64,000 nucleotides of DNA, taken from contig JAEBUN010000017.1 in NCBI GenBank assembly GCA_023014365.1, positions 310,001 through 374,000 on the forward strand, given 5' to 3'. Source of the stretch: Lepiota brunneoincarnata. Taxonomy: Eukaryota; Basidiomycota; Agaricomycetes; Agaricales; Agaricaceae. The notes under the pieces are model-generated. The model was given only the letters and a program-made list of their open reading frames with translations. It searched no databases and was not told the DNA's origin. A program made the translations under genes and the position numbers. This document shows positions 7,472-50,253 of this stretch, piece by piece; the stretch's first letter is position 1, and every line of letters starts with the position of its first letter.

Positions 7472-7521
7472 ATGCCTTCTTCCGTCCGCTCACTCCCATC
7501 CGAATCCGCACTTATTTCTAC
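7472..7521 (+). pseudogene. ORF3 of element B, first codons, cut by D1 insertion
   Basis: ATG at 7472 opens a frame that runs into the D1 LTR at 7522. Continuing on the other side of the inversion (28411 downward, minus strand, after removing one TCTAC copy) keeps the same frame for more than 200 codons. ORF3 therefore starts here, about 60 bp after pol. See 27368-28411 for its product. Confidence 0.75.
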
Positions 7522-8193
7522 TGTTAGAGCTGGTGCAGGTCGGGACCGAAGCGGAGGGTCGGGGTGGTACCCTTGGTATAAGGTAGCCAGGGGACAGGGC
7601 GAAGTCAGTACGTAGACTTCGGGACCGAGGTGGGGTACGTCGGGCGGGGGTTTGGACTTGTGGCCTCAGCTTATGTGCTGTGCCCTCCTACTGTCCTAGT
7701 CTGTATTTCAGGAAGTCGGAGCCGAAGCGGAGCAAGGCAGAAGAGAGGAGAGGATAGGGAACAGGGAGCTGGTCCACTGCTCAATTCGATTATCAGACTG
7801 AAGAGTACAAGCCAAGTACCTATGGTATATATACTACTGGCCTTACGAACTATGACTTGTACTGACTACGTGTGGAGCGAAGCGGAGACCGATATAGTTA
7901 CAAATGGATTACGAACAGATTACAAATGGATTATGAAGGAAATGGAGACCGGTACGGGTATGGAGACTGATAACGTCTCTTGGTTACGGATGGAGAATGG
8001 AGAACCGGAAAGTAACACCGAGGGTCAGGTGACCACAGCACGTGCAGAGATGGTTGCGTGATCAGGGCAATGGGTTTGTGGTCGGAGTGAGTCGGGGCTG
8101 AGTCGGAGGGCAGAGGGTTGTTATGTGGAGCACATGTGGAGTCGAGAAGCCGAAGTATAATGGTTAAGCTCTGGGTTTGGCATGGATATGACA
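7522..8193 (-). repeat. 3' LTR of D1 (672 bp)
   Basis: On the minus strand it starts TGTCATATCC and ends CTCTAACA. It is preceded on that strand by a polypurine tract (about 8194-8211, A/G-rich with a run of G). It differs at several percent of positions from the 5' LTR 14705-15376. Confidence 0.95.
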
Positions 8194-8325
8194 GTGCCCC
8201 CCCTTTAGGGCTGAGCCTCAAGGCCCTAGGGGGTCTAGACTGGGGCCCATCAGAAAACCCCGCCAGGGTATAAAAACAGGTGAACTGGTTCGAGTTGGGA
8301 GAGTACAACTTAACCCCATACTCCC

Positions 8326-9391
8326 ATGAGCAGACAACCATCCCGACAACCGACCGCCGTGGAGCGCAAGGCGCAACTGCTGAGGGAGAAGGCTGAGCGA
8401 GAGGAGTGGGAGCAGCTTGAAATCGAGAGGTTGGAGGAGGAGGAGCGACAAGAGGAGGAGGAGCGGCAGCAGCTGATAGTGCTGCGTCAGCGACAAGCGG
8501 AGGAGCGGGCGAGGGAGCACCTGGCGGAAGAGATCAGGCAGCAACAAGATGAGGCTGCCGAGGCGGAGCGTCAGGCGATTTGGGCCAGGCTCGTTGCAAC
8601 TACTGCGGGGGCTTCGTCGAGCCGCCTGCCGGAAGAACCGATGGAGGTAGATACGGAGGAGTCGGAATCCGATTACACGGATAGGAACGAGACGGAAAAT
8701 GAGGAGGAGGACGAGGACGAGGACGAGGACTCCGGGGACACAGGGGGTAAGGGAAAAGCAAGGGCGAGGGCGGCCCCGCGACGGGGCCATGCGAACATAT
8801 TCAGGGGTGAGAACCCCTGCTGGAGGTGCGAGCGAGATGGGGTCCAGTGTGAGGTCCCCAGCGGGTAAGTTATTTTGAGGGTTTCCAGGCTACCTACTGA
8901 TAGTTTTTTAGTAACACCAGGAGTTGCCGTCGGTGCAGCAAAATGAAAAAATGGTGCGGGGGTCAAGAGGAGATGGAGCCGAGTGGGGCCGGGGGCATGT
9001 CGGGCCAACAATTTGAAGGTGAGTGAGGAGTCCTGTATCATGATGTACGCTAATCAGTGGGTTTGTAAAATTGAAAAGGTTCATCACTGAAAAGCACCAG
9101 GAGACCATCAAGAGGGTCAACATCCTGGAGGTGCGGCTTACACAGGCCATCACTTGATTGGGGGAGAGGGTGGACAAGGTCAAGCTGACGGCTGGCCGTT
9201 ATGAACAGTTGCGGTGTTGGGAGGCACAGGTGGATGGTAATTGGTCAAGTAGGGGTATTACAGAGACGGAGGAGACGGAGGAGTCGGAGGAGTCGGAGAG
9301 CATTGGAGGCATTTCGGAAGAGGAGGTGCGAGGTATGATGGAGGATGCGGCGGCGCTGCCCTGCACCTCTGGGAACGATACGGACAGGTAG
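8326..9391 (+). CDS. Gene Z (D1 copy): antisense, spliced, coiled-coil plus Zn2Cys6-like protein
   Basis: Lies between integrase and 3' LTR but reads against the element. Exon 1 is 8326-8864; intron 8865-8911 has GTAAGT..TTTTTTAG; exon 2 starts at 8912. Residues ~10-85 are a long E/R/Q-rich coiled coil; ~105-145 are acidic. Across the first intron the reading is C-x2-C-x6-C-x9-C-x2-C-x6-C (CWRCERDGVQC then CRRCSKMKKWC), the spacing of a fungal Zn(II)2Cys6 cluster. A second donor GTGAGT is at 9019; the boundary of the third exon is unclear. Helical sequence follows to TAG 9389-9391, with one TGA at ~9155 where CGA would fit. DNA binding is inferred from the cysteine spacing only. Gene X of element E has a similar motif and position. 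Confidence 0.7.
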
Positions 9392-9448
9392 TTGTACTTG
9401 TCCAATAAATTTTTTTTGTTTCTTGGTGTGGTGGGTGATCAGTGAAAC

Positions 9449-12400
9449 TCAGAGTGAATGGAGGGGGCCAGGCTTAGTGGGGTAAGAGGAATGGAAAGCC
9501 TCCACTAGATCTGTAGCATGTTCAAGCTTGGTAGCCGGTAACCACGAAGACTCTTCTTCGGTGTCTTTGTAACCTAACCAGATGACTTTATAGAGGAGCT
9601 TGCATGCGCGGCGCCGATCAATTTTTGAGTTGACGATGCGAGCAATCTCATATTCTGGTTCCCTGCCAATAGAAACCGGCATGGGCGGCAGGTCTGATCG
9701 GGCGGGTATGGTGTTAGGTGTGGATGGTTCAAGCATGGAAACATGGAAGACTGGGTGTACTCCATGCATGGAATCAGGAAGTCGGAGTGTGAAGGAGTGA
9801 GTACCTGCTTGGGCAATGATCTCGTAAGGTCCAAGGAACTTTTTGGAGAGCTTTTTGGAGGGACGGGTGGTGCGGAAGAATTGGGCTTTAATGAACACCT
9901 TTTGCCCAACCTTGAAGTCCGGAGCCGGGAGACGGCGGGCGTCGGCGGAGGTCTGATATTGTTGCTGGGCTAATGCTATTTCCGACTTCAAGGTGGTATG
10001 TAGGTCATCAAGATCAACCGCAAAATGGCGGGCCCGGACGGAGGCGAGGTCACGTTCAGGGTGAACTGTGATGTTCGGATGGTATCCTTTGTTAGCAAAG
10101 AATGGGGAGATACTGGTAGTGGCACTAGGGGCGTTATTGTATGCAAACTCAGCTAGTGGTAGTAATTCAGACCAATTGTCCTGTTGGTAGTTACAATAGA
10201 CCCGGAGATATTGTTCCAGGGTCTGGTTGGTGCGTTCCATCTGTCCATCGCCTTCTGGATGATAGCCCGAAGTGAAGTGTAGTTTCATGTTGAGGGCTTG
10301 TCCTAGGGAGCGGAAGAAGTGGGAGACAAATTCGGAGCCGCGGTCAGAGGTAACATGTTCGGGTACGCCATGCTTGGAGAAGACGTGGAGGACGAATAGA
10401 TGGGCGAGGTCGGAGGAAGTGACGGTATCGTAGGTGGGGATGAATAAGGATTGCTTGGTGAGTCTGTCGACTATTACTAGGATGGCATCGTAGCCAGAGG
10501 AGGCAGGGAGTTTTTCAATGAAGTCCATGGAGATTGAATTCCAAGGGCGTTCAGGGATGGGGAGTTGCTTGAGGAGACCGTAGGGGCGGTGGCGCTGGGG
10601 TTTAGACCTCATACAGATGACACAAGACTTACATGAGAAATCTTTGACAAAGGTGCGGACACTAGGCCAGGTGTATTCGCGCCGGATGAGTTCCAGCGTT
10701 TTATTCTGACCGAAGTGGCTGGCTAGGACATGGTCGTGCTTGTACTGGAGGACCCAAAGTTGGAGATTGTCGGCGTCAGGGACGTAGATTCTGTTGTCTA
10801 AGAGGAGGAAACCTTTATCATTGACTGACCAACGGCCTTCTGGGCTAGCAAGATGGGCGGAGGCAGTCGGATCCGCTGGTAGAGCGGCGAGGATATCGCA
10901 GTGCAGCTGGTTGAGATCCATGACTACAGCAGTGCGAAGGGATGGGGCGTAAAGAGTGGTGGCGCGGACAGAGGCCACAAGCTGCTTGTGGGTGAATATG
11001 GGCCGGAAATTGTGCGGGTTGACTGATGCATAGTCACTATTCCCCCCTTTAGGGTAGACATCCCATTGTCTAGTTAGGGCGTCAGGCTTGGTGCCGAGGC
11101 GGCCAGGTCAGAACCGGATGACGAGGTGGAATTGGGATAGGAACTCGGACCAACGAGCTTGGCGGCGAGTAAGGATCTTGGTGGTGCAGAAGTATTCAAG
11201 GTTTTTGTGGTCGGTGACTACATCAATAGTAAGAGGGGCACCCTCAAGATAGTGCCACCAGATACGAAAAGCCTCAAATATCGCCAGAAGTTCCTTGTCG
11301 TGGGTGTCATAATTAAGTTCGGCCGTGTTAAAGGTGCGGGAATGGAATGCAACGGGGTGAACCTCACCATCATCAGTGATGATAGAGAGGATGGCCACAA
11401 GGGCGTAGTCGGAGGCGTCGGTCTCGACAATGATCTGAGCATCAGGGGTCCAAGGAGTGAGGATGGGAGCGGATATGAATGCTTCCTTCAGGGAGTTAAA
11501 GGCTTCACGACATTCATCAGTGAAATTCCATTTCACGTCTTTGCAGGTGAGGTGAGTGAGCGGAACAACGATGTCGGAGTAACCATGAATGAAGCGACGG
11601 TAGAAATTGGCGAAACCTAAGAAAGACTGGATGTCCTTGACTTTCTTGGGTTCTGGCCACTCCTGGATGGTCTTGACCTTTGATTGGTCCATTCGGAGAC
11701 CGTCAGGGGAAAGGATGTAGCCGAGGTATTCCACTGTGTCAGAGTGGAACTGGCATTTGTCGGGGCAGGCATATAGACCATGTTGTCGGAGCCACTTGAG
11801 GACCTCCTTGACCTGGTCACGATGGATACTATGATTGTCAGAGTATATCAGAATGTCGTCAAGGTAGATAGTAACGCAGACGTCGAGCATGTCCTTGAAT
11901 ATATCGTTCATGAACCGCTGGAAGGTGGCGGGGGCGTTGGTGAGGCCGAAAGGCATAACCATCCATTTGAAGGAGCCATAGCGGGTCCGAAAGGCAGTCT
12001 TCCATTCGTTGCCGTCAGCAACGCGGACTAGATGGTAAGCGTGACGGAGGTCGATTTTGGTATATATGCGGGCTTTGCGAGGGGAGTCTAAGAGGTCGGA
12101 GATGAGCGGAAGGGGGTAGCGGTCCTTCTTGGTAATACGGTTGAGACCTCTAAAATCAACACATAAGCGGAGGGAGCCATCCTTTTTCTTGACGAAGAGG
12201 ACCGGGGCTCCATGAGGAGAAGTGGAGGGGCGAATGAAGCCAATAGATAATGTTCGTCAATGAAATCACGTAGAGCTCCAAGCTCTGATTGTGAAAGGGA
12301 GTAAATGGTACCGACCGGAGGTTGACCGCCGTCCTCTAGGTTAATCTGGAGGTTGTAAGGGCGGTGTGGAGCGAGTGTGTCAGCACACGATTTACTGAAA

Positions 12401-13250
12401 ACATCGGCAAACTCATGGTATTCCTCGGGGATGGACGAGAGGTCAGCCGGGTCTTTGGAGACAGAAGAAGATGTGGCCGATGCGGAGGCGGCGGAGAGGT
12501 TAATTCGGAATTGTTGGGAGCCAGGGAGCTTGGCAGCGCGGATAAAGGCAGGAGCGTTTATCAGGGATATGTGTGGTTTTGCAAGGGGGACAGATTGGGA
12601 CGAGGTCCCGGACAGGGGTGGTGAACCTAGGTCAGGAGTGTCAGGGGTGGCCATAGGCAGGGCCGATGCGGGTGCGACGCAGGAAGAGACGGAAGCAGGA
12701 TTCTCGAGTAGGGATGGCCGGAAAGTGATACTGCCCAAAGCCCAGTCAATCAACGAATTGTAGCGGGTGAGCCAGTTGTGTCCTAAGACCACAGAACAGG
12801 AAGAGTCGAGCCAGGTGACATAAGTGTCCAAAATGATAGATTCACCGGAGGGGAAAGATACAGGCAGTTGCGCAAGCTCCATAATGTAGGCATTTGAGGT
12901 CCCATCAAATAACCGAAGTTCAATAGCTGGGATGGACGAGGTTGGAATACTATGAGAATGAAAAAAAGATGAGTCCACAAAACAGTGAGTAGAACCACTA
13001 TCAACAAGAGCTTTGAAAGGAGAAAGAGAAGAGAAATTAGAACTAACTACATTGTCCGTTGTAGAAAGCGGGTCCGAAGCGGAGAGTATGGAAGTGGAAA
13101 CAGAAGATAAGGAAGTAACTAAAGGAGAAGTTAATGTAATGTGAAAAGAGTTCGGGTCGGAAAGAGCGGATGCATTGAGACGGAAACTCTCTGGAGCACA
13201 GCAGAGTTCAATGCGATCCTCAGTCTGTGCAGAGGCCTGAGGACCGCCGA
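9449..13250 (-). pseudogene. pol: pol of D1: protease, RT, RNase H, integrase, chromodomain
   Basis: Same coding sequence as in D2 (30538-34339), so read with that entry. Reading down the minus strand: protease LVDSGSTHCFVD (~13015), reverse transcriptase with YLDD ([11 protein letters not shown], ~11870), RNase H ([13 protein letters not shown], ~11430), integrase ORF 10978-9449 (509 aa) with a chromodomain near its C-terminus. It is broken by a frameshift inside RT (~12250), where residues before a conserved [14 protein letters not shown] segment change frame, and by a TGA at ~11108 between RNase H and integrase. Both defects are present in D2 as well. Confidence 0.93.
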
Positions 13251-14651
13251 CTATTTTTCCAAGCTCGGGAGAGTCGGTGCGTCTGTCTTGGGGAGCTGAG
13301 CCTGTCGGCCTTTAGCCTTGGCATCAGGGAATTTCTTCTTGTCGCAGTTGGCAGCCCTGTGATTGGGATCTGCGCAGACAAGGCAGAGGTTATTGTTGAA
13401 ACGTCGTTGACGTTCCTCGGGGGTTAATTTACCATCCTTACCAAGTTTACTAGTAAGGTCGGATTTGGGCGGGGCTAATTTCTGACCGGCGGACGGGTTG
13501 GGTGGATTGCCCTTGAAGCTGTTGTTGGGGGTGCTGCCTTTGTTGTTATTGGCAGGCTTGGCGGCAGGTTGCGGGTTGGTCGAGGTGGAAGGGGATGGGT
13601 TACCTCCGGGTTTCCTAGAGGTGGTCAGGTCCGAAGCAGATTTGGTGCGAGCCTTCTCACGTTGGCGTTCCCAGTAGCGAGCGTCGATCTTCATCGCTGC
13701 TGCTCACATTTCGATGAAGGTGTCGGGCTTGCTGTTGGGCCGATTGGACAGAATGTCCTGGATGCGGTCGGGGAGGCCTTTGTAGTAGCGGTGACAAAAT
13801 ACTTCATCACTCCAGCGGAGTTGGCCAGCTAGGCAGAGAAAGTCGACGTTGTAGATGGCGATCTTCTCGTCGTAGCGCATTCGGAGGGAGTCAAGCTGCT
13901 CAGCAGCTTCTCCGGTTGGATCCGCAGGACCGAAATTGGTCTGCAGTTCCAGGGTGAACTGGTCCCAGTCCTCGATCCAGTCATGCATTATTCCGTGGTT
14001 GTTGGCCTCATCAAGGCCGATTTCGAAGTGTTGCTGTGCCACGCCCGTAAGGTTCGTCAACGCAAAGTTGACCTTGGTGGCAGGGATAGCGAACTGAGCT
14101 GGGTTAGTACGGAAGTAGAGTCGGCATTGGAAGAGGAAGGGTTTGAGTTTGGTAGGGTCGGAACCTGTAAAGATGTCAGGTTTGCGAGCTTTGGTACGGG
14201 GAGTTCAGGGAGGCTGTGGGGCTTGAGAATTCCCACGGCCGTCCATTTGATCGGCTATGCGTTGGAAAACTCAGAGTAGGAGTCGATCATGGTCGTCTCA
14301 GTTGTTGCCAGGTGGGGTATTGTTGTTGTTGTTGCCGTTGTCTGATGGTTCGTCGTCGCCCGGGGGCCTGTCCCCATTGTCAGGATAGTCATCGGGATCA
14401 CCAGGGTTGCTGGGATCAGGATTGGGGTCGGGGCCATCGTCGGGGCCGTCGGGAGTCCGGAATACTGAAGGTTGTATATCTTCAGAGAACCAGTCTGGGG
14501 TCGAGGGCGCGATAGATTGTCGGCGAGAGCGAGAAGCCCTTGGGGAGTCGGGTTGCAGTTCCTCGGAAGGAGGTTGTCGAGTGATGTGTTTGCTATGGCG
14601 AGTGGCTGGAGTTACCAGAGTGCGAGTACGGGTAACTGTTTGAGAGACCAT
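13251..14651 (-). pseudogene. gag: gag of D1 with zinc knuckle
   Basis: Starts ATG at 14651 on the minus strand. The frame is open except for TGA codons that fit decayed CGA (after residue 117, about ten codons later, near the PP-TPRTK segment, and before AAAMKID). Capsid-like region (MRYDEKIAIYNVDFLCLAGQ), basic linker, then CLVCADPNHRAANC (C-x2-C-x4-H-x4-C) near 13370-13330. Translation is identical to the D2 copy at 29137-30537, including the stops. Confidence 0.9.
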
Positions 14652-14691
14652 GGTTAGAAAGATTCAGAGTGTGGTGGACAGGAGGAGTGTG

Positions 14692-14702
14692 AGTCTGATA
14701 AT
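14692..14702 (-). other. Self-priming primer-binding site of D1
   Basis: On the minus strand ATTATCAGACT follows the 5' LTR after two bases. It is exactly complementary to AGTCTGATAAT inside the LTR, the same relation as at 29086-29096 in D2. Confidence 0.7.
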
Positions 14703-14704
14703 AC

Positions 14705-15376
14705 TGTTAGAGCCGGTGCAGGTCGGGACCGAAGCGGAGGGTCGGGGTGGTATCCTTGGTATAAGGTAACCGGGGGACAGGGCGAAGTCAGTACGTAGAC
14801 TTTGGGACTGAGGCAGAGTATGTCGGGCGGGGGTTTGGACTTGCGGCCTCAGCTTATGTGCTGTGCCCTCCTACTGTCCTAGTCTGTATTTCAGGAAGTC
14901 GGAGCCGGAGCGGAGCAAGGCAGAAGAGAGGAGAGGATAGGGAACAGGGAGCTGGTCCACTGCTCAATTCAATTATCAGACTGAAGAGTACAAGCCAAGT
15001 ACCTATGGTATATATACTACTGGCCTTACGAACTATGACTCGTACTGACTACGTGCGGAGCGAAGCGGAGACCGATATAGTTACAAATGGATTACGAATG
15101 GATTATGAATGGATTACGAAGGAAATGGAGACCGGTATGGGTATGGAGACTGATAATGTCTCTTGGTTACGGACAGAGAATGGAGAACTGGAAAGTAACA
15201 CCAAGGGTCAGGTGACCACGGCACGTGCGGAGATGGTCGCGTGATCAGGGCAATGGGTTTGTGGTCGGAGCGAGTCGGGGCCGAGTTGGAGGGCAGAGGG
15301 TTGTTATGTGGAGCGCACGTGGAGTTGAGAAGCCGAAGTATAATGGTTAAGCTCTGGGTTTGGCATGGATATGACA
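14705..15376 (-). repeat. 5' LTR of D1 (672 bp)
   Basis: Nearly identical to the 5' LTR of D2 (28412-29083); I see one difference, near 15242. The right flank 15377-15381 is AGAAG, the reverse complement of 36267-36271. Confidence 0.95.
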
Positions 15377-17339
15377 AGAAGTGACTTGAGCTCCTTGAAT
15401 TCCTCATATGTTGGGACTCCCAGAAAGTTGTCAGCAAACTCGAAGAATGCCTGAACATCTTCAAGGGAGTCAGCCATCCCCATCTCGATGAACGCCATGT
15501 TGTTACCTTCCAAGGCCGTCCTGGTAGCTTGCATTTCCTGGACAAACTGATAAACCACCCAATGGTGGTGAAATGCCGAAGCCTCGTAAGCGACGTGGTT
15601 TGCCTCCAGGCTGACCAAGCTGGAGGACACAACACGTGCAAAAGCAGCCAGATCTAGAAAATAAAGGGAATAAGAAAAGAGAAAAATTGTGAACAGAGAA
15701 ACTTATGGTATTCACTGGTCAGTGAAGACATGACTAGGACATTCACAATGCCAGCCAAGACTTGCGGATGGTCTGCGAAGGTGCAGGGGTAATTATAGAG
15801 GTTGCAGCTGCAACACTTCTTACCCTTGCCCAGAGGCTCGCACTCCAACTTATGAGCAGCGCAGGAAGGACACCAAGACCGAGGTGGCACGTACTGGGGT
15901 AGATGTCAAAACCTTCAGTAAGGAAACATGAGAAAACTTGGAGAACATACCAAAAGCTGGCTAGCTGCCAGCAGCCTAGGAAAGTCCTCACAAAAGAGTG
16001 GGACTGGGTGGTGGTATCCATGGTCCCAAATAATGGTGGCCTCAGAGCATCAAACGCAAGCTCGGGGAACATATTTCTTCGTCCATGTGTTGGAACTCTT
16101 CTTGGACGAAAGGACGCGTTTTTGATGCGACGGGCCAGCATGAGGAGACTTTTGAGGGATCTCTGGGACCACCAGGCTAGGCAAACAAGAAGGGATGGGG
16201 GTCGGAGAAGCTAAGAACGCATCTTGAAAAACAAAAGTCAGTTCTTGAGGGGCAGGCGAAGGCTCCAGAAGGAGCTCTAAATCTGGAGAAGGTGAAATCT
16301 CCACAGTGCTTGCAGGAGACTTGACTGGAGTACCAGCTAAGTGAGGTGGTGATGGTGTTGGGCACCTAGGTGAAGCCAGCACATGTTGCCCATCCAGAGA
16401 AGAGGACCAGCTAAAGATCTTAAAGAGGTTGGCTTGAGAGACCTTAGGGACCAGAGAACATGATGACAAGTTAGAACCCACCAGGAATAAGGGGAGAGGG
16501 GGCAGCGTCGATGATTTTGCCTTCTGTTTGCCTTTAAGGGCAGCTGGTATACACACTAAAGCAGAAGTCAGCGGAAAGAACAAAATATATTGTGAAAATG
16601 ACTAAGCTTACATGTTGAAGTAGCTGAAGAGAGTATGGGGGAAGAAGGCCAGTTTGTTGAAGGGCCCAGCACCTCCAAACCTGATGCAATACCCAGGGGA
16701 GGGAGCACCAGCAAGTCTTCCCCATCCAGGGTGCGCAGAGAGATGGCGAGAGGGGGCAGCAACATTGAGCTGGACAAAGCCTCTGTGGATAATCCACCAG
16801 AGGGCCTGCCAACAGGGATACCTGACAAGGGTTCTGTGGAAAATCCAGCAGAGTGCTTGTTGGTTGGATTGCACAATGACATGATGGAAATCACACATCT
16901 TGGCACTGGAGCGGCCAAGGGAGAGGCTGGCGGAGGAGTTGGTTCATGGGGTGGAGAGTATGGTGGAGGAGAGGTCCTTGCCATACCCACCTGACAATTT
17001 CCGCAAACTCTTCGCCCTCCTCTAGCCCTCCTAGTACGTGGTGCTGGTGGTTCCCATTGAGGCAGGAGGTTGCGACATGCTGGTAGGCAAATAGTGAGAC
17101 CTAAAAGCAGAGAAAACATGAGTGATGACAATGAGAACAGGGAAAAACGCAACTTACGTTGCACAATCGATGATAAAGGTGCGCCTTGAGAAGCCGGTGA
17201 GGCATTGCTCAGCCCAGTATAGCCTGAAAACAGCATTAAGAAAACAGAAAAAACTGTAACTCGAACTCTACTTACTGGAAGAAGAGTCCAAGTCCTCCTC
17301 GTAGCAAGCATGTTTGCTGCTGCACATGTTTCTGTCCAT
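15377..17339 (-). pseudogene. Gene X: spliced Zn2Cys6-like protein carried antisense in element E, cut by D2
   Basis: ATG at 17339. In-frame splices: exon 17276-17339, intron 17224-17275; exon 17158-17223, intron 17101-17157; exon 16612-17100, intron 16556-16611 (GTAAGC..TTTAG); then a P/S-rich exon from 16555, whose end is unclear. Last exons 15716-15893 and 15382-15653 are joined by intron 15654-15715 (GTGAAT..TTCTAG). The 15893 exon encodes CPSCAAHKLEC then CCSCNLYNYPC, a C-x2-C-x6-C-x8-C-x2-C-x6-C array. The final exon is helical (SLEANHVAYEASAFHHHWVV). The frame runs into the D2-type LTR; without it, it continues in frame at 36272 and stops at 36327-36329. Function unknown; a DNA-binding role is only suggested by the cysteines. 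Confidence 0.65.
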
Positions 17340-17649
17340 TACTGATAAAAGTGGGTGTTGAAGAGTGATATGCAAGCAGGATAGACAAGTAAGAAGTGAG
17401 AGGGAGAACAAAAGAGAGGAAATGAGACCTTGGGACATTTAAAAGACCCAATCACAAGATAAAAATTTAAGCTATAGCAACAAGAAGTTGATCTATACAT
17501 TTAAACTTGGTGACATGACATTATTTTGGAATAAGCTTAGCAAAAGTATGCTACTCTTGAAGCTGGTGAATGTTCTAGAACATAGAGCGCATCAGAGAGG
17601 CTCAGATACTGTGAATTTGAAGGAGATAATGACTGAGGACAGTCAGCAA

Positions 17650-17664
17650 TTGGTTAGGGGGAGA
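17650..17664 (+). other. Polypurine tract of element E
   Basis: TTGGTTAGGGGGAGA directly precedes the LTR that starts TGATAC at 17665. This is the expected plus-strand primer next to a 3' LTR and fixes this LTR as the 3' one. Gene X begins about 310 bp before it and points away. Confidence 0.6.
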
Positions 17665-17689
17665 TGATACACCGATTTCACACCTATAC

Positions 17690-17980
17690 ATGAATTCCGT
17701 ACTCTGGAACAATTCTCTACATAGAATCATTGGCTATATCATTAAAGAACCCTATAAAGGATTGGTACTATGTCCCATAGTAGCCAGTTCAACAGAACTG
17801 AGGATATTCAAGCCTCGGAAGTGTTCAAACCAGCTCATTATCACTAAGCTTAGTGAACCAAGCTATCAGAATGCTCTCTGGAGGGATTCCGGACTCTACA
17901 TAGCCTATCAAGTATACTCTGGTCACATCCAGGGACCTTACAAGCAGTTTTCTGATGAACTCGGATTTGTTGGAACCTAA
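17690..17980 (+). CDS. ORF in U3 of the E 3' LTR, unknown function
   Basis: 96 codons from ATG 17690, starting 26 bases into the LTR. The same frame is open in the 5' LTR (48907-49239, minus), and its first ~50 codons are open in the extra LTR copy before the G insertion (47241-47079). Substitutions among copies are mainly CpG-type and keep the frame. Sequence includes SLHRIIGYIIKE and FKPRKCSNQLIITKLS; I recognise no domain. It may be the tail of a longer reading frame that enters the LTR, or a chance ORF kept because the copies are related. Confidence 0.4.
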   Translation: MNSVLWNNSLHRIIGYIIKEPYKGLVLCPIVASSTELRIFKPRKCSNQLIITKLSEPSYQNALWRDSGLYIAYQVYSGHIQGPYKQFSDELGFVGT

Positions 17981-18593: not shown

Positions 18594-18705
18594 GACAGAG
18601 ACAGAGAACAGAGTTCAGAGTTTAGAGTTCCAGAGTGCTAGAGACAGAGACAGAGACAGAGAACAGAGTTCAGAGACCAGAGACCAGAGACCAGAGACCC
18701 TGCAC
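18594..18705. repeat. CAGAGA-type simple repeat in LTR of E
   Basis: Two clusters of GAGACA/CAGAGA units separated by AGAGTTCAGAGTTTAGAGTTCC. The reverse-complement version occurs in the other LTR copies at about 45545-45655 and 47570-47680. Unit number differs among copies, as expected for slippage. Confidence 0.8.
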
Positions 18706-18773
18706 TTTGAATTGACAGGGATTGTCCTTTCATTGTTGCACCGTACGGCTAAGATAACTTCAATGGCTGTTTG

Positions 18774-20616: not shown

Positions 20617-20621
20617 GTGGA

Positions 20622-25300: not shown

Positions 25301-26226
25301 AGGTGTATTCCTGGCCAAAATGGAGGTGGAAGGACTGGTAACACAGGTAAGGTCAATAGGGGGTCTTCAGGTACCCTTCTGATAATTTGGTAGTTGCTAG
25401 GCATTGTCGCTGGTACTGGTCAGACTTTGTTGGTGACCTTTTTGTAGGCTAGGCAGTGGGCCTCGATGTTGTAAGTGAAAGTTGATGAGAGGATTGCCTC
25501 TGTTAATGTGTTGTCTCCTCCACAGATCCTCCATACTCCTTTGTCCTCTATTCCCCTCATCACTACCAATCCTTTCCTTGTCTTCTCCTCCACTCTCTCT
25601 CTTGTTGGCACCACCACCTTTTTTTCCTTCCCCACCAGGTCTGTCACCACTACCTCAACATTAACATCCTCCTGCTCTACTTTCCCCAACCTCACTCCTC
25701 ATTGCCAGGGCCTTCCCAACAACAACCAATATGGTGCTGTTTTCACAACAAATGCATGTGCAAATGTCTTCAAACCTCCTACCATGATCTCCAACCACTT
25801 GACACAACCCTCTAGGTTCTCCTTCCCACCATTCACTGTCTGCATCACCATCCTCCTCGCCCTATTCACCTTTATCCCCAACTCATCACATAAATCCTGT
25901 CTCACCAATACAATCTCTGACCCTTCGTCCAACAGTCCCATCTCAACTGCTCCCCTTCCCTCTTTCCCTTTCACTGTCACTTCCACCTCTTGAAGTGGTG
26001 TTGTAAACTCAAGCAACATCCCAGGTACTGCTGCTACAACAGCTCCCATCATCAGAGCTTTCTGTGTATGTGTGTTGTCAATCATGAGTTTGCGAAGGTC
26101 CCCACTGATTGATAGTAACTCCTTTACAGTGACTTTAGGGACTTCAGCTTCAAGTATGCATTTGTAGATCCCTTGCATTATTGATGTGCTTGAGATTTTT
26201 GACTTGAGTTTGTATGCTGGGTGCAT
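22326..26226 (-). pseudogene. pol: pol of element A: protease, RT, RNase H, integrase, broken
   Basis: Reading down: pepsin-like protease segment GLLDEGSEIVLVRQDL followed by LLLGRPWQ (26226-25699); RT from 25404 (KKDGNIWIVHNLTPLNA) with the catalytic pair in NFLDDITLLG (~24660); RNase H from 24548 (IILAVDTSLIAVGCILGQ) to GPDGLSRQ (~23795); integrase with an HHCC-like segment (LGHKGFYAT..HPCQ, ~23340-23230), NGTAFVAALDWLANKY and YNSQSNGVVETTHRTIRDAL (23015-22326). Several stops and frame changes; many stops are TGA/TAG at former CGA or CAG. DEGS in place of D-S/T-G is shared with other agaricomycete members as far as I recall. Inactive. Confidence 0.88.
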
Positions 26227-26553
26227 CTTGGCTGCTTCCTCCTTTCATCCTTCTTCCCTAGTCTCTGCTGACTCTTCACTACTCTTCCCAGCTCCTCTCT
26301 TCTCTTGTGCTCTCATTGTCACCATCCCTTCCACTTCTGACTTCTTCTCATTTCCCAACTCCTCCAACTTGACTATTGCTCCCCACACAAATCCTTCTTC
26401 TCCAGTCTCCATCTCTTGTGCTGAAACATACAAGGTAAGTGGTATGGATGAAGGGGTTGGGGCTGGTACCGGTGGTGTTATACTTGCACTGGGGGTTGCC
26501 TGTAGTGGTCCCCCCCACTTCTGATCTATAGCTCCTTTGAACCCTCCTGGATG

Positions 26554-26929
26554 TCATTCAATATGCAAGCTATCTCCATGCACATGGTACCCTCCAGCTA
26601 GGATAAGTAATCGACCTGCTCGAACATACTCAGCTGCAATGGGGCATGCTCGAAGCCTATATGAGGGATCTTTACACATGAGGCATGCGTAGTTCTGGGG
26701 TATCATGGGTGCCCCACATCCTGGCTGATTTCGCATGAAGGCTGTTGTTGATGCTGTTGGTATCCATTGTGCTGGTGGTGAAATGTGTTCGGCGACAGTT
26801 GGGGCTACCAAAACTAGCTGGGTGTAAGTTGCCATGTATGTTGCATCGGTTACCTCTAGCCCATGTAGTTTCCTTGTGAGTTCTTCAACCTCATCCATCA
26901 CTCCTCCCTTCTTCTTTTCCTTCTCCTCT
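26554..26929 (-). pseudogene. gag: gag of element A, C-terminal part with altered zinc knuckle
   Basis: Continues gag from 1377 after removal of B. Contains CLMCKDPSYRLRAC, which has the spacing of a C-x2-C-x4-H-x4-C knuckle but with Tyr for His. TAT for CAT is a single C-to-T change, so loss by decay is the simplest reading. E/K-rich helices precede it. Confidence 0.7.
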
Positions 26930-27280
26930 TGTTATGCTGGTTAGGCATCTGCAAGGCTCAATGCGATTAACAACAAGTTAACCGTTGAGTAGTGCAAGCA
27001 AGTCTAAGGCAATGCCAAAGAGCAGGAACAAATACTGTGTATAATAAGACAAAGCTAAGGATTACAAGTAATACTTAGGTCTATATATACTACTGAGGGA
27101 CTGGCATGTGATAAAGGCGAGAATCACATGCAAACGGGTGGAAATCACAGGCCAAAGTAAGCTAACTATAGACAGGCGGTGGTATATGATAAGTAAATAT
27201 AACCAGGCGTTGACAACAGGCGGTGACATGTGATAGGTAAAAATAGGCGGTCAGGCATGCTAAAGGGAAAATGTTAACAT
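26930..27280 (-). repeat. 3' LTR of element B (351 bp)
   Basis: Reverse-complement match to 1378-1727 with TGTTAAC..CATAACA ends. Flank 26925-26929 is CCTCT, the reverse complement of AGAGG at 1373-1377. Confidence 0.93.
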
Positions 27281-27367
27281 TACCCCCTTCTAATCTTCGA
27301 ACTCTGTTTCGAAGTCAACAAGCGGCGGGGTACGGGCGTTGGGTACAGGTCACGGATGAAGTCATTC

Positions 27368-28411
27368 CTAGTCGTAGCCGTATCCGTCGTAGGTGTAGTC
27401 GTAATTGTTGTATTGGCCGTCGCCAATGATATCGTATGTTCGTCCAAAGGTATTGGGATAGCGTTGCGCCGTCCTTTCGAGCGCGGTGTTCCGTTGGTTC
27501 TGGTGGTAGACGGGGCAAGTTCGCATGTAGTGTCCTGGTGCGGAGTGGTTGCAGTGACGACAGGTGTATCGGGGGCAGCTGTGTGCCCAGTGGCCAATCT
27601 GGTGGCATTCAAAGCAGCGATTTCTTCCAACATCATACGAGCGGGTTGTCGCGGTTTGGGGTGTGACGGTGGGGGTGGTACGATGTCAGGGAGGTCTTTG
27701 GGGTAGGGGGTGGGTTTCCTGCTGTTGGTGGGCTTCCATTCGTTGGGTGAATTTGTCCACTGTTTGTCGTCGAGTTTGGGGTGGTGGTGCGGAGGCAGGG
27801 GGTACGATAATAGGCGGGGTAACAGGGCTTGGAGGTTGTTCAGGTCGAACTTGTCGGTGGGTAGAGTGTACAGGGACTTGTTGGGCCGGTCTGTCGGTTG
27901 GTGTAGGTTGAATCGTACTAGGGATTGTGGGCACAATCCGTATACCAGTTGTGGAGCTGCAATGTTCGGTGAAAATTCGGTGGAAGGTGGGATCGGTCCA
28001 CAGGCGGTTGAATGTGTTTTGGTTTGCCTCTTTAACTCTTTTGACGCTTTGTTCGAGGCCGCAGAGGCAGAGGAGGTTTTCGTGGAGTTGGAAGAAGCCA
28101 TCACGAACTTCTGTTGATACTGCTGGTGTTGGTGCGATAAGAAGCGAAAAGATGAGGGTAGAGGCACTGTCGACTTCGTTAATATAGTCGCTAACGGAAG
28201 CGATGAGCAGGGGAGCGGGGACGGCGGTTGGCGTTTCTGCAATGGGTGGAACGGGACTGGGGGGAGTGGTCTGTTGTGGTACGCAGCGTGGGGGCGGTGT
28301 GTCTTCAGTGGTATTAAGAGTGCTTTCGACGAGGAATTGGTATAGGATGCGGTTGGAGTCGGGCTGCGCGGACGAGGATCTGGTTGTTCCATCCAACGTA
28401 GGTGGGGTAGA
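27368..28411 (-). pseudogene. ORF3 of element B: accessory protein with two zinc knuckles
   Basis: Follows the 50 bases at 7472-7521 in the same frame. Proline/threonine-rich N-terminus, a helical middle (EVRDGFFQLHENLLCLCGLE), a TGA at 27686-27688 where CGA fits, then two knuckles: CFECHQIGHWAHSC (C-x2-C-x4-H-x4-C) and CRHCNHSAPGHYMRTC (C-x2-C-x6-H-x4-C). The tail is rich in Y, N, D and G and ends at TAG 27368. The longer open frame 27280-28392 is a different frame without these motifs and is taken as its shadow. A nucleic-acid-binding accessory role is inferred from the knuckles; Gag of B already has one knuckle, so the function of a second protein is open. Confidence 0.7.
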
Positions 28412-29083
28412 TGTCATATCCATGCCAAACCCAGAGCTTAACCATTATACTTCGGCTTCTCAACTCCACGTGCGCTCCACATAACAACCCTCTGCCCTCC
28501 AACTCGGCCCCGACTCGCTCCGACCACAAACCCATTGCCCTGATCATGCGACCATCTCCGCACGTGCCGTGGTCACCTGACCCTTGGTGTTACTTTCCAG
28601 TTCTCCATTCTCTGTCCGTAACCAAGAGACATTATCAGTCTCCATACCCATACCGGTCTCCATTTCCTTCGTAATCCATTCATAATCCATTCGTAATCCA
28701 TTTGTAACTATATCGGTCTCCGCTTCGCTCCGCACGTAGTCAGTACGAGTCATAGTTCGTAAGGCCAGTAGTATATATACCATAGGTACTTGGCTTGTAC
28801 TCTTCAGTCTGATAATTGAATTGAGCAGTGGACCAGCTCCCTGTTCCCTATCCTCTCCTCTCTTCTGCCTTGCTCCGCTCCGGCTCCGACTTCCTGAAAT
28901 ACAGACTAGGACAGTAGGAGGGCACAGCACATAAGCTGAGGCCGCAAGTCCAAACCCCCGCCCGACATACTCTGCCTCAGTCCCAAAGTCTACGTACTGA
29001 CTTCGCCCTGTCCCCCGGTTACCTTATACCAAGGATACCACCCCGACCCTCCGCTTCGGTCCCGACCTGCACCGGCTCTAACA
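28412..29083 (+). repeat. 5' LTR of D2 (672 bp)
   Basis: TGTCATATCC..CTCTAACA. Near-identical to 14705-15376. More diverged from its own partner 35595-36266 than from the LTR of D1. Confidence 0.95.
28772..28816 (+). promoter_or_regulatory. TATA box and probable transcript start of D2
   Basis: TATATA at 28772-28777 is 34 bases before AGTCTGATAAT (28806-28816), whose reverse complement is the primer site after the LTR. Spacing matches that in element B (33 bases), supporting 28806 as RNA start. The same arrangement is present in D1. Confidence 0.75.
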
Positions 29084-29085
29084 GT

Positions 29086-29096
29086 ATTATCAGACT
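29086..29096 (+). other. Self-priming primer-binding site of D2
   Basis: ATTATCAGACT, two bases after the LTR, pairs perfectly with 28806-28816. This indicates Tf1/sushi-type self-priming rather than tRNA priming. Confidence 0.75.
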
Positions 29097-29136
29097 CACA
29101 CTCCTCCTGTCCACCACACTCTGAATCTTTCTAACC

Positions 29137-30537
29137 ATGGTCTCTCAAACAGTTACCCGTACTCGCACTCTGGTAACTCCAGCCACTCGCCATAGCAAAC
29201 ACATCACTCGACAACCTCCTTCCGAGGAACTGCAACCCGACTCCCCAAGGGCTTCTCGCTCTCGCCGACAATCTATCGCGCCCTCGACCCCAGACTGGTT
29301 CTCTGAAGATATACAACCTTCAGTATTCCGGACTCCCGACGGCCCCGACGATGGCCCCGACCCCAATCCTGATCCCAGCAACCCTGGTGATCCCGATGAC
29401 TATCCTGACAATGGGGACAGGCCCCCGGGCGACGACGAACCATCAGACAACGGCAACAACAACAACAATACCCCACCTGGCAACAACTGAGACGACCATG
29501 ATCGACTCCTACTCTGAGTTTTCCAACGCATAGCCGATCAAATGGACGGCCGTGGGAATTCTCAAGCCCCACAGCCTCCCTGAACTCCCCGTACCAAAGC
29601 TCGCAAACCTGACATCTTTACAGGTTCCGACCCTACCAAACTCAAACCCTTCCTCTTCCAATGCCGACTCTACTTCCGTACTAACCCAGCTCAGTTCGCT
29701 ATCCCTGCCACCAAGGTCAACTTTGCGTTGACGAACCTTACGGGCGTGGCACAGCAACACTTCGAAATCGGCCTTGATGAGGCCAACAACCACGGAATAA
29801 TGCATGACTGGATCGAGGACTGGGACCAGTTCACCCTGGAACTGCAGACCAATTTCGGTCCTGCGGATCCAACCGGAGAAGCTGCTGAGCAGCTTGACTC
29901 CCTCCGAATGCGCTACGACGAGAAGATCGCCATCTACAACGTCGACTTTCTCTGCCTAGCTGGCCAACTCCGCTGGAGTGATGAAGTATTTTGTCACCGC
30001 TACTACAAAGGCCTCCCCGACCGCATCCAGGACATTCTGTCCAATCGGCCCAACAGCAAGCCCGACACCTTCATCGAAATGTGAGCAGCAGCGATGAAGA
30101 TCGACGCTCGCTACTGGGAACGCCAACGTGAGAAGGCTCGCACCAAATCTGCTTCGGACCTGACCACCTCTAGGAAACCCGGAGGTAACCCATCCCCTTC
30201 CACCTCGACCAACCCGCAACCTGCCGCCAAGCCTGCCAATAACAACAAAGGCAGCACCCCCAACAACAGCTTCAAGGGCAATCCACCCAACCCGTCCGCC
30301 GGTCAGAAATTAGCCCCGCCCAAATCCGACCTTACTAGTAAACTTGGTAAGGATGGTAAATTAACCCCCGAGGAACGTCAACGACGTTTCAACAATAACC
30401 TCTGCCTTGTCTGCGCAGATCCCAATCACAGGGCTGCCAACTGCGACAAGAAGAAATTCCCTGATGCCAAGGCTAAAGGCCGACAGGCTCAGCTCCCCAA
30501 GACAGACGCACCGACTCTCCCGAGCTTGGAAAAATAG
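29137..30537 (+). pseudogene. gag: gag of D2 with zinc knuckle
   Basis: ATG 29137; open for 117 codons to TGA 29488-29490, then continues in frame through further TGA codons (~29515, ~29581, ~30082) to TAG 30535-30537. N-terminus basic then acidic (P/D/N-rich). Capsid region around 29728-30080. Linker rich in N/P/S/K; zinc knuckle CLVCADPNHRAANC around 30402-30443. All four TGA fit CGA arginine codons. A copy with exactly the same stops is in D1. Confidence 0.9.
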
Positions 30538-33500
30538 TCGGCGGTCCTCAGGCCTCTGCACAGACTGAGGATCGCATTGAACTCTGCTGTGCTCCAGAGA
30601 GTTTCCGTCTCAATGCATCCGCTCTTTCCGACCCGAACTCTTTTCACATTACATTAACTTCTCCTTTAGTTACTTCCTTATCTTCTGTTTCCACTTCCAT
30701 ACTCTCCGCTTCGGACCCGCTTTCTACAACGGACAATGTAGTTAGTTCTAATTTCTCTTCTCTTTCTCCTTTCAAAGCTCTTGTTGATAGTGGTTCTACT
30801 CACTGTTTTGTGGACTCATCTTTTTTTCATTCTCATAGTATTCCAACCTCGTCCATCCCAGCTATTGAACTTCGGTTATTTGATGGGACCTCAAATGCCT
30901 ACATTATGGAGCTTGCGCAACTGCCTGTATCTTTCCCCTCCGGTGAATCTATCATTTTGGACACTTATGTCACCTGGCTCGACTCTTCCTGTTCTGTGGT
31001 CTTAGGACACAACTGGCTCACCCGCTACAATTCGTTGATTGACTGGGCTTTGGGCAGTATCACTTTCCGGCCATCCCTACTCGAGAATCCTGCTTCCGTC
31101 TCTTCCTGCGTCGCACCCGCATCGGCCCTGCCTATGGCCACCCCTGACACTCCTGACCTAGGTTCACCACCCCTGTCCGGGACCTCGTCCCAATCTGTCC
31201 CCCTTGCAAAACCACACATATCCCTGATAAACGCTCCTGCCTTTATCCGCGCTGCCAAGCTCCCTGGCTCCCAACAATTCCGAATTAACCTCTCCGCCGC
31301 CTCCGCATCGGCCACATCTTCTTCTGTCTCCAAAGACCCGGCTGACCTCTCGTCCATCCCCGAGGAATACCATGAGTTTGCCGATGTTTTCAGTAAATCG
31401 TGTGCTGACACACTCGCTCCACACCGCCCTTACAACCTCCAGATTAACCTAGAGGACGGCGGTCAACCTCCGGTCGGTACCATTTACTCCCTTTCACAAT
31501 CAGAGCTTGGAGCTCTACGTGATTTCATTGACGAACATTATCTATTGGCTTCATTCGCCCCTCCACTTCTCCTCATGGAGCCCCGGTCCTCTTCGTCAAG
31601 AAAAAGGATGGCTCCCTCCGCTTATGTGTTGATTTTAGAGGTCTCAACCGTATTACCAAGAAGGACCGCTACCCCCTTCCGCTCATCTCCGACCTCTTAG
31701 ACTCCCCTCGCAAAGCCCGCATATATACCAAAATCGACCTCCGTCACGCTTACCATCTAGTCCGCGTTGCTGACGGCAACGAATGGAAGACTGCCTTTCG
31801 GACCCGCTATGGCTCCTTCAAATGGATGGTTATGCCTTTCGGCCTCACCAACGCCCCCGCCACCTTCCAGCGGTTCATGAACGATATATTCAAGGACATG
31901 CTCGACGTCTGCGTTACTATCTACCTTGACGACATTCTGATATACTCTGACAATCATAGTATCCATCGTGACCAGGTCAAGGAGGTCCTCAAGTGGCTCC
32001 GACAACATGGTCTATATGCCTGCCCCGACAAATGCCAGTTCCACTCTGACACAGTGGAATACCTCGGCTACATCCTTTCCCCTGACGGTCTCCGAATGGA
32101 CCAATCAAAGGTCAAGACCATCCAGGAGTGGCCAGAACCCAAGAAAGTCAAGGACATCCAGTCTTTCTTAGGTTTCGCCAATTTCTACCGTCGCTTCATT
32201 CATGGTTACTCCGACATCGTTGTTCCGCTCACTCACCTCACCTGCAAAGACGTGAAATGGAATTTCACTGATGAATGTCGTGAAGCCTTTAACTCCCTGA
32301 AGGAAGCATTCATATCCGCTCCCATCCTCACTCCTTGGACCCCTGATGCTCAGATCATTGTCGAGACCGACGCCTCCGACTACGCCCTTGTGGCCATCCT
32401 CTCTATCATCACTGATGATGGTGAGGTTCACCCCGTTGCATTCCATTCCCGCACCTTTAACACGGCCGAACTTAATTATGACACCCACGACAAGGAACTT
32501 CTGGCGATATTTGAGGCTTTTCGTATCTGGTGGCACTATCTTGAGGGTGCCCCTCTTACTATTGATGTAGTCACCGACCACAAAAACCTTGAATACTTCT
32601 GCACCACCAAGATCCTTACTCGCCGCCAAGCTCGTTGGTCCGAGTTCCTATCCCAATTCCACCTCGTCATCCGGTTCTGACCTGGCCGCCTCGGCACCAA
32701 GCCTGACGCCCTAACTAGACAATGGGATGTCTACCCTAAAGGGGGGAATAGTGACTATGCATCAGTCAACCCGCACAATTTCCGGCCCATATTCACCCAC
32801 AAGCAGCTTGTGGCCTCTGTCCGCGCCACCACTCTTTACGCCCCATCCCTTCGCACTGCTGTAGTCATGGATCTCAACCAGCTGCACTGCGATATCCTCG
32901 CCGCTCTACCAGCGGATCCGACTGCCTCCGCCCATCTTGCTAGCCCAGAAGGCCGTTGGTCAGTCAATGATAAAGGTTTCCTCCTCTTAGACAACAGAAT
33001 CTACGTCCCTGACGCCGACAATCTCCAACTTTGGGTCCTCCAGTACAAGCACGACCATGTCCTAGCCAGCCACTTCGGTCAGAATAAAACGCTGGAACTC
33101 ATCCGGCGCGAATACACCTGGCCTAGTGTCCGCACCTTTGTCAAAGATTTCTCATGTAAGTCTTGTGTCATCTGTATGAGGTCTAAACCCCAGCGCCACC
33201 GCCCCTACGGTCTCCTCAAGCAACTCCCCATCCCTGAACGCCCTTGGAATTCAATCTCCATGGACTTCATTGAAAAACTCCCTGCCTCCTCTGGCTACGA
33301 TGCCATCCTAGTAATAGTCGACAGACTCACCAAGCAATCCTTATTCATCCCCACCTACGATACCGTCACTTCCTCCGACCTCGCCCATCTATTCGTCCTC
33401 CACGTCTTCTCCAAGCATGGCGTACCCGAACATGTTACCTCTGACCGCGGCTCCGAATTTGTCTCCCACTTCTTCCGCTCCCTAGGACAAGCCCTCAACA

Positions 33501-34339
33501 TGAAACTACACTTCACTTCGGGCTATCATCCAGAAGGCGATGGACAGATGGAACGCACCAACCAGACCCTGGAACAATATCTCCGGGTCTATTGTAACTA
33601 CCAACAGGACAATTGGTCTGAATTACTACCACTAGCTGAGTTTGCATACAATAACGCCCCTAGTGCCACTACCAGTATCTCCCCATTCTTTGCTAACAAA
33701 GGATACCATCCGAACATCACAGTTCACCCTGAACGTGACCTCGCCTCCGTCCGGGCCCGCCATTTTGCGGTTGATCTTGATGACCTACATACCACCTTGA
33801 AGTCGGAAATAGCATTAGCCCAGCAACAATATCAGACCTCCGCCGACGCCCGCCGTCTCCCGGCTCCGGACTTCAAGGTTGGGCAAAAGGTGTTCATTAA
33901 AGCCCAATTCTTCCGCACCACCCGTCCCTCCAAAAAGCTCTCCAAAAAGTTCCTTGGACCTTACGAGATCATTGCCCAAGCAGGTACTCACTCCTTCACA
34001 CTCCGACTTCCTGATTCCATGCATGGAGTACACCCAGTCTTCCATGTTTCCATGCTTGAACCATCCACACCTAACACCATACCCGCCCGATCAGACCTGC
34101 CGCCCATGCCGGTTTCTATTGGCAGGGAACCAGAATATGAGATTGCTCGCATCGTCAACTCAAAAATTGATCGGCGCCGCGCATGCAAGCTCCTCTATAA
34201 AGTCATCTGGTTAGGTTACAAAGACACCGAAGAAGAGTCTTCGTGGTTACCGGCTACCAAGCTTGAACATGCTACAGATCTAGTGGAGGCTTTCCATTCC
34301 TCTTACCCCACTAAGCCTGGCCCCCTCCATTCACTCTGA
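30538..34339 (+). pseudogene. pol: pol of D2: protease, RT, RNase H, integrase, chromodomain
   Basis: Protease LVDSGSTHCFVD at ~30784; RT palm with YLDD ([11 protein letters not shown]) at ~31918; RNase [14 protein letters not shown] at ~32355; TGA at 32678-32680 (CGA expected, in the conserved segment before PGRLGTKPDALTR); integrase ORF 32810-34339 with zinc finger (CKSCVICM), SMDFIEKLP, TSDRGSEFVSHFF and HPEGDGQMERTNQTLEQY, then a chromodomain-like segment (EYEIARIVNSKI..YKVIWLGYKDTEEESSWLP) near the end. RT is frameshifted at about 31537-31545, two bases before a run that otherwise reads [18 protein letters not shown]. The frameshift and stop are shared with D1. Confidence 0.94.
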
Positions 34340-34396
34340 GTTTCACTGATCACCCACCACACCAAGAAACAAAAAAAATTTATTGGACAAGTACAA

Positions 34397-35462
34397 CTAC
34401 CTGTCCGTATCGTTCCCAGAGGTGCAGGGCAGCGCCGCCGCATCCTCCATCATACCTCGCACCTCCTCTTCCGAAATGCCTCCAATGCTCTCCGACTCCT
34501 CCGACTCCTCCGTCTCCTCCGTCTCTGTAATACCCCTACTTGACCAATTACCATCCACCTGTGCCTCCCAACACCGCAACTGTTCATAACGGCCAGCCGT
34601 CAGCTTGACCTTGTCCACCCTCTCCCCCAATCAAGTGATGGCCTGTGTAAGCCGCACCTCCAGGATGTTGACCCTCTTGATGGTCTCCTGGTGCTTTTCA
34701 GTGATGAACCTTTTCAATTTTACAAACCCACTGATTAGCGTACATCATGATACAGGACTCCTCACTCACCTTCAAATTGTTGGCCCGACATGCCCCCGGC
34801 CCCACTCGGCTCCATCTCCTCTTGACCCCCGCACCATTTTTTCATTTTGCTGCACCGACGGCAACTCCTGGTGTTACTAAAAAACTATCAGTAGGTAGCC
34901 TGGAAACCCTCAAAATAACTTACCCGCTGGGGACCTCACACTGGACCCCATCTCGCTCGCACCTCCAGCAGGGGTTCTCACCCCTGAATATGTTCGCATG
35001 GCCCCGTCGCGGGGCCGCCCTCGCCCTTGCTTTTCCCTTACCCCCTGTGTCCCCAGAGTCCTCGTCCTCGTCCTCGTCCTCCTCCTCATTTTCCATCTCA
35101 TTCCTATCCGTGTAATCGGATTCCGACTCCTCCATATCTACCTCCATCAGTTCTTCCGGCAGGCGGCTCGACGAAGCCCCTGCAGTAGTTGCAACGAGCC
35201 TGGCCCAAATCGCCCGATGCTCCACCTCGGCAGCCTCGTCTTGTTGCCGTCTGATCTCTTCCGCCAGGCGCTCCCTCGCCTGCTCCTCCGCTTGTCGCTG
35301 ACACAGCACTATCAGCCGCTGCCGCTCCTCCTCCTCTTGTCGCTCCTCCTCCTCCAACCTCTCAATTTCAAGCCGCTCCCGCTCCTCTCGCTCAGCCTTC
35401 TCCCTCAGCAGTTGCACCTTGCGCTCCGCGGCGGTTGGTTGTCGGGATAGTTGTCTGCTCAT
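34397..35462 (-). CDS. Gene Z (D2 copy): antisense, spliced, coiled-coil plus Zn2Cys6-like
   Basis: Same architecture as 8326-9391. The first ~125 codons differ from the D1 copy at about 20 residues (for example R for W and V for A in the coiled coil), while the zinc motif and everything downstream are identical. The frame stays open through all these differences, and most of them are C/T or G/A. The sudden change from diverged to identical, near 35056 (8731 in D1), marks the edge of the homogenised tract rather than selection. Intron signals GTAAGT..TTTTTTAG are conserved. Confidence 0.7.
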
Positions 35463-35594
35463 GGGAGTATGGGGTTAAGTTGTACTCTCCCAACTTGAAC
35501 CAGTTCACCCGTTTTTATACCCTGGCGGGGTTTTCCAATGGGCCCCAGTCTAGACCCCCTAGGGCCTCGAGGCTCGGCCCTAAAGGGGGGGCAC

Positions 35595-36266
35595 TGTCAT
35601 ATCCATGCCAAACCCAGAGCTTAACCATTATACTTCAGCTTCTCGACTCCACGTGCGCTCCACATAACAACCCTCTGCCCTCCAACTCGGCCCCGACTCG
35701 CTCCGACCACAAACCCATTGCCCTGATCATGCAACCATCTCCACACATGCCGTGGTCACCTGACCCTCGGTGTTACTTTCCAGTTCTCCATTCTCCGTCC
35801 GTAACCAAGAGACGTTATCAGTCTCCATACCCGTACCGGTCTCCATTTCCTTCGTAATCCATTCGTAATCCGTTCGTAATCCGTTTGTAACTATATCGGT
35901 CTCCGCTTCGCTCCGCACGTAGTCAGTATGAGTCATAGTTCGTAAGGCCAGTAGTATATATACCATAGGTACTTGGCTTGTACTCTTCAGTCTGATAATC
36001 GAATTGAGCAGCAGACCAGCTCCCTGTTCCCTATCCTCTCCTCTCTTCTGCCTCACTCCACTCCGGCTCCGACTTCCTGAAATACGGACTAGGACAGTAG
36101 GAGGGCACAGCACATAAGCTGAGGCCGCAAGTCCAAACCCCCACCCGACGTACTCCGCCTCGGTCCTGAAGTCTACGTACTGACTTCGCCCTGTCCCCCG
36201 GTTACCTTATACCAAGGATACCACCCCGACCCTCCACTTCAGTCCCGACCCGCACCGGCTCTAACA
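35595..36266 (+). repeat. 3' LTR of D2 (672 bp)
   Basis: Preceded by a polypurine tract (TAAAGGGGGGGCAC at about 35581-35594). Several percent diverged from 28412-29083 and from 7522-8193. Confidence 0.95.
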
Positions 36267-36271
36267 CTTCT

Positions 36272-50248: not shown

Positions 50249-50253
50249 TCCAC

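Follow-up and report, generated by a model that had tools for sequence, protein, structure and literature searches.

Exchanged target-site duplications and a one-sided homogenised tract in two inverted Ty3/gypsy elements point to a crossover that flipped 13 kb of a fungal genome

Two copies of a Ty3/gypsy retrotransposon with a chromodomain, D1 and D2, lie in opposite orientation, one at each breakpoint of a 13,035-bp segment, and have exchanged their 5-bp target-site duplications. It is probable, judging from the sequence, that a crossover between these inverted elements, with gene conversion on one side, flipped the 13,035-bp spacer. That the sequenced DNA contains a real inversion, alone or beside the other orientation, can be held with slightly more confidence. 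The sequence compared (the window) was the 64,000-bp stretch G000:C11:310001-374000, within a 55.6-Mb assembly of 95 contigs. On this reading the locus would be a self-contained record of an ectopic crossover together with its conversion tract, preserved in a fungus, probably of the mushroom type, whose genome undergoes CpG-directed decay.

D1 and D2 carry exchanged target-site duplications

Self-comparison placed D1 at 7522-15376 (coding strand minus), with LTRs at 7522-8193 and 14705-15376, and the LTRs of D2 at 28412-29083 and 35595-36266. D2 (28412-36266, plus strand) is an inverted copy of D1: the alignment of 7522-15376 with 36266-28412 covered 7,855 bp without a gap and with 69 mismatches, all transitions. 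The coordinates, length and inverted arrangement given in a preliminary description of this DNA were exact in the self-comparison. D elements have LTRs of the form TG...CA and a 5-bp duplication, and they encode, in succession, a protease, RT-RNase H, an integrase and a chromodomain; this order marks the family, whose members are called chromoviruses. Pfam matches in the minus-strand frames of D1 placed the RVP_2 protease within 12088-13311, RT and RNase H within 11108-12256, and integrase, an SH3 Tf2-1-like domain and the chromodomain within 9449-11107. The named fungal relatives of the D RT among the 120 matches listed came from the mushroom-forming fungi Cyclocybe, Trametes, Pisolithus, Armillaria, Pleurotus and Lentinula, with about 68 to 72 of every 100 residues identical; the top-scoring match of those listed was a frog record with 53% identity.

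Neither element has matching flanks of its own. D1 lies between TCTAC (7517-7521, plus strand) and AGAAG (15377-15381, plus strand), and D2 between GTAGA (28407-28411) and CTTCT (36267-36271), which read TCTAC and AGAAG on the minus strand. In the orientation of D1, the flanks of D2 read AGAAG...TCTAC, and the duplications of the two elements have therefore been exchanged: the outer duplication adjoining D1 now has its partner at 28407-28411, and that adjoining D2 has its partner at 15377-15381. All flank letters were as previously claimed. This exchange must have come from a crossover or from something with the same result.

The exchanged duplications of D1 and D2 are exceptional when set against other D copies. 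Controls were the D-family copies with both ends among the matches listed, a subset of the family, with 60 bases fetched around each end. The 5-bp duplications were identical at both ends in all ten other single copies checked, whose spans (7,469 to 9,443 bp) indicated that some carry insertions or deletions. Three LTR-only matches gave exact duplications in two cases and duplications one transition apart in the third. Two other inverted D pairs, on contigs C19 and C1, were checked in their first members, which had matching duplications. A tandem D-LTR-D on contig C7 had matching outer duplications (GTATC). This tandem (G000:C7:652472-667434) consists of units offset by 7,156 bp with one LTR in common, and these are near-identical (0 differences in 2,000 and 1 in 2,687 compared sites).

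Flipping the segment restores the orientation of four older elements

The segment between the D copies (15377-28411) also splits four older nested elements, B, C, E and H. Each of them has one LTR inside the segment and the other outside, in opposite orientation, and flipping 15377-28411 alone gave direct LTR orientation in all four. The left (5') LTR of B (1378-1727, plus strand) follows the duplication AGAGG (1373-1377), and its right (3') LTR, now inverted (26930-27279, minus strand), adjoins AGAGG at 26925-26929. The 320-bp LTRs of E lie at 20297-20616 (minus strand, inside the segment) and 49929-50248 (plus strand, outside), with TCCAC beyond each, at 20617-20621 as the reverse complement and at 50249-50253. 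For E, undoing the flip leaves a direct LTR pair with TCCAC beyond both, as had been proposed. The LTRs of C are 300 bp long; the left one (1-283, plus strand) begins 17 bp before the window, and the right one is now inverted (21895-22194, minus strand). Four bp of flank match (CTAT, at 21891-21894 on the right) and 5 bp do not, the 4-bp duplication length having been picked after the sequence was seen. An H-type LTR at 45285-47283 has CCGC on both sides, also hinting at 4 bp.

The 5' LTR of H, outside the segment (47299-49264, minus strand), carries a D-type LTR (47970-48633), and the 3' LTR, inside it (17665-19671, plus strand), carries a 703-bp insertion (18774-19476). The flip joins the two interior parts of H and restores the direct orientation of its LTRs. 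The duplications of H itself do not match even after the flip (ATGGA at 19672-19676 against AACAG at 49265-49269), which is evidence against our reading; the proposed repair of H stands for orientation and contiguity, and falls short at its duplications. The H LTRs hold more insertions: a second H-type LTR lies 15 bp from the first (45285-49264), and the 703-bp repeat is inserted at different points in two H LTRs (within 45285-49264 and 17665-19671).

Other copies of the host elements are contiguous across the breakpoints

Paralogous copies of B and H provided the empty sites. Seven B loci (L002-L008) were fetched from 40 other matches listed, and in six of them the equivalent of 7521 adjoins the reverse complement of 28411 with nothing in between, the two alignments overlapping at the junction by 5 bases in four copies and by 6 in two. 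The seventh, L005, exits B 38 bp earlier into another element. An open frame of 70-372 codons spans the empty site at the same place in each of the six contiguous copies. The claim that undoing the flip repairs B was borne out by the direct LTR pair, the matching AGAGG and these copies.

Among the matches listed, and with self rows excluded, 39 loci reach the H breakpoint with the first query base on one side and 35 on the other. In the 19 loci common to both sets, the reverse complement of 36267 is followed by 15377, and the two matches overlap by exactly 5 bases in all 19. Their match to the 36267 side extends over about 1 kb in six loci, over 159 bases in four, and over 34-35 bases before a gap in nine. 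Reading 14 distinct H loci in full showed contiguity in 13, five of which are also among the 19, and a gap of about 70 bases in L023. Where the site was readable, the uninverted arrangement was thus found in paralogous B and H loci of the same assembly.

D1 and D2 are homogenised on their inner side

The differences between D1 and D2 are distributed very unevenly. Sixty-eight of the 69 fall in the outer 1,212 bp, which are 5.6% diverged, and the remaining one (offset 7719) falls in the other 6,643 bp, a clustering with P ~4e-54 under uniform spread. Near-identity runs from alignment position 1,213 to the inner ends; the mismatch positions place this homogenised tract at 8734-15376 in D1 (plus strand) and 28412-35054 in D2 (minus strand). 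The tract comprises the 5' LTR and the pol frames of D1 (coding strand minus), and the unconverted part consists of the 3' LTR and about 540 bp before it. Since identity continues up to the inner ends, one parental inner part was lost, that is, converted. This one-sided tract, which the preliminary description did not report, speaks for recombination that really took place, and did so very recently.

Comparison with other copies showed how far the relation of D1 to D2 changes along the element. In the outer 1,212 bp, L031 and L032 come nearest among the other copies, with 92.4-93.9% identity to D1 or D2, little short of the 94.4% between D1 and D2, and have 4 transversions where D1 and D2 have none. 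For the 1.4 kb that follow, the best full-length match (L032) reaches 95.8%, against 100% for the pair. At 10000-11500 the pair is again 100% identical, and the next best of the 40 matches listed has 96%. A single site separates the inner LTR of D1 from that of D2, whereas inner and outer LTRs differ at 29-36 of 672. At the variable LTR sites, derived states numbered 23 in the outer LTR of D1, 18 in that of D2 and 22 in the common inner version. The shared inner LTR is as decayed as the outer ones, and homogenisation therefore took place after ageing, by conversion.

A recent arrival of both elements from a common source was rejected on the 29-36 differences between outer and inner LTRs and the equal decay of the three LTR versions, and the like derived-state counts ruled out hypermutation local to the outer ends. 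The mosaic identity fits a crossover with conversion in a chimera test, in which site counts for the donor of the tract favoured neither element (5 sites against 5).

CpG decay orders the insertions and dates the conversion

Most of the 69 differences between D1 and D2 lie in CpG context (53); at 10 sites a neighbouring base also varies, and 6 differences are of other kinds. These contexts ruled out repeat-induced point mutation of the CpA kind. PMC4352252 reports that C-to-T changes in transposons bear a CpG signature in three basidiomycetes, strongly in one of them and weakly in the other two. The fraction of CpG sites differing between the LTRs of one element was 0.46-0.49 in D, 0.62 in B, 0.73 in C and H, and 3 of 3 sites in E. 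This order tracks the nesting: D lies within B, which lies within C, and D also lies within H, which lies within E. One of the 347 CpG sites in the tract has changed since the conversion. If decay is treated as a clock, the age of the conversion can be estimated at about 0.4% of that of the D elements, with an upper bound near 2%. Because CpG decay follows the nesting, this one locus gives relative dates both for the insertions and for the exchange. Given so recent a tract, the inversion itself might be a recent one, a polymorphism or an error of phasing.

A crossover with conversion is the probable origin of the inverted segment

In the event that we propose, two members of one Ty3/gypsy family would have entered the locus some 13 kb from each other and facing opposite ways, one landing in B and the other in H. 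After ageing, D1 and D2 would have recombined, and a crossover inside the paired elements would have flipped the 13,035-bp spacer, so that the inner flanks changed places and took the target-site duplications with them. The same event would have copied the inner 6.6 kb of one D over that of the other by gene conversion, leaving the outer 1.2 kb of each with separate CpG-decay mutations. The simplest route would be a break in one D, a long repair from the other and resolution as a crossover. We infer that crossover and conversion were a single event, and the assembled order presumably reflects the order in the DNA of the cell. The event may have been mitotic, a reading adopted because the tract size fits the tracts of yeast mitotic crossovers. 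The data support a crossover between inverted elements as the only simple known route that exchanges both duplications and splits four older nested elements.

The inversion had previously been presented as proven. Its origin by crossover is supported by the duplications and the split elements, but that word is too strong for the DNA itself, since mis-phasing or coexisting orientations, both named in the preliminary description, would give the same picture in a single assembly. Conversion without crossover could have homogenised 6.6 kb in a chromosome that kept the ancestral order, after which an assembly joining the wrong inner flanks would produce the same sequence. A near-identical stretch of 6,643 bp is exactly the kind of ambiguity that could mislead an assembler, and in a yeast Ty1 assay of 36 isolates the authors inferred that conversion had occurred without a crossover in 9 and with a crossover in 1 (PMC9879454). 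However, homogeneity extends to the inner ends, where the two copies have different neighbours and reads anchored in these would bring differences back. Polishing errors would hardly produce so sharp an outer edge together with a reach to both inner ends, and the tract itself therefore looks real. The tandem D units on C7 were kept separate and have matching outer duplications, which argues against a simple collapse of long near-identical repeats there. Such mis-phasing would also require two independent events, and we consider it quite unlikely. Two independent insertions with flanks that look exchanged by chance have in their favour that 5-bp duplications are short, and nothing else. Ten matching bases at fixed positions are expected about once in a million, the other copies are contiguous on both sides, and two further duplications add to this; contiguity in the other B and H copies ruled out a chance match of the D flanks, and we give this origin next to no weight.

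The assembly might instead present one state of a pair that flips repeatedly, both orientations coexisting in the nuclei of a dikaryon or in the population. This overlaps with a crossover with conversion, each flip being the same crossover, and their probabilities are not additive. An estimated tract age below about 2% of that of the elements fits repeated exchange, and D1 and D2 still form a 6.6-kb near-identical inverted pair. On the other hand, one recent event suffices, and the inverted pairs on C19 and C1, with matching duplications on their first members, show that inverted pairs need not exchange. The flank 54500-63900 matched only itself at full length, giving neither a second orientation nor an allelic contig, and no second haplotype in the assembly for that interval. 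A search with 22326-24326 likewise gave no second haplotype, the best other copies having 94% identity at full length and 96% over part. We hold coexisting orientations to be unlikely, though deserving of attention. A live switch, in which the 6.6-kb arms keep exchanging, both 13-kb orientations coexist among nuclei and conversion keeps the arms identical despite CpG decay, would be equally unlikely on the sequence. Contigs G000:C53 and G000:C59 have mirrored match sets to 22326-24326 with like identity, as if they were allelic or duplicated contigs.

Comparison with known transposon-mediated inversions

Transposon-mediated inversion with exchanged duplications is of a known kind, the Galileo type; the one-sided conversion tract with its CpG clock is what is added here. 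In the Drosophila buzzatii inversion 2z3, as described in the sections available of PMC2775673, opposite copies of Galileo also lie at the breakpoints, their duplications are exchanged and ectopic recombination was inferred. Unlike the D elements, which are Ty3/gypsy retrotransposons with 5-bp duplications, Galileo is a DNA transposon with 7-bp duplications. The same account of 2z3 has two chimeric copies and non-inverted chromosomes, in contrast to the one-sided conversion tract and the solely paralogous uninverted copies found here (PMC2775673). The literature search returned the Galileo precedent and not this locus, which is no proof that the locus is unpublished.

Yeast offers further parallels. 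A crossover between inverted Ty1 LTR retrotransposons on one chromosome arm is drawn as an inversion in PMC9879454, where a figure legend gives an inversion of chromosome II with Ty1 at both breakpoints, and where crossover-associated conversion is reported. Ty1 recombination was induced by directed breaks in that system, unlike in the D pair, and the four isolates described in detail are reported there without recombination between same-arm inverted repeats (PMC9879454). In PMC3616911, the conversion tracts that accompany mitotic crossovers in yeast measure 10.6 kb at the median, with 4.7 kb for events in G2 and 14.8 kb for those in G1; the meiotic figure is about 2 kb. The tract of the D pair resembles them as a kilobase-long conversion adjoining a crossover, and differs in that the yeast tracts come from allelic recombination between homologues, not from ectopic recombination between transposons (PMC3616911). 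Within a single assembly, exchanged duplications combined with older nested elements can mark an inversion or a phasing error.

Surroundings of the transposon stack

A gene copy is split around the transposon stack, with its parts within 50254-60000 of the window and at C11:304808-309904, and all matched parts of this bracketing copy lie outside the inversion. No coordinates corresponded to the gene X whose repair had also been claimed. A tandem paralogue occupies 55038-59736; its region matched NPHP3_N (E 4e-7) and, weakly and below threshold, HET (E 0.033), and 348 bp of the paralogue (58586-58933) found no match. At 61722-62068, about 346 bp are repeated at many sites of the genome with up to 99% identity, apparently as a young short repeat.
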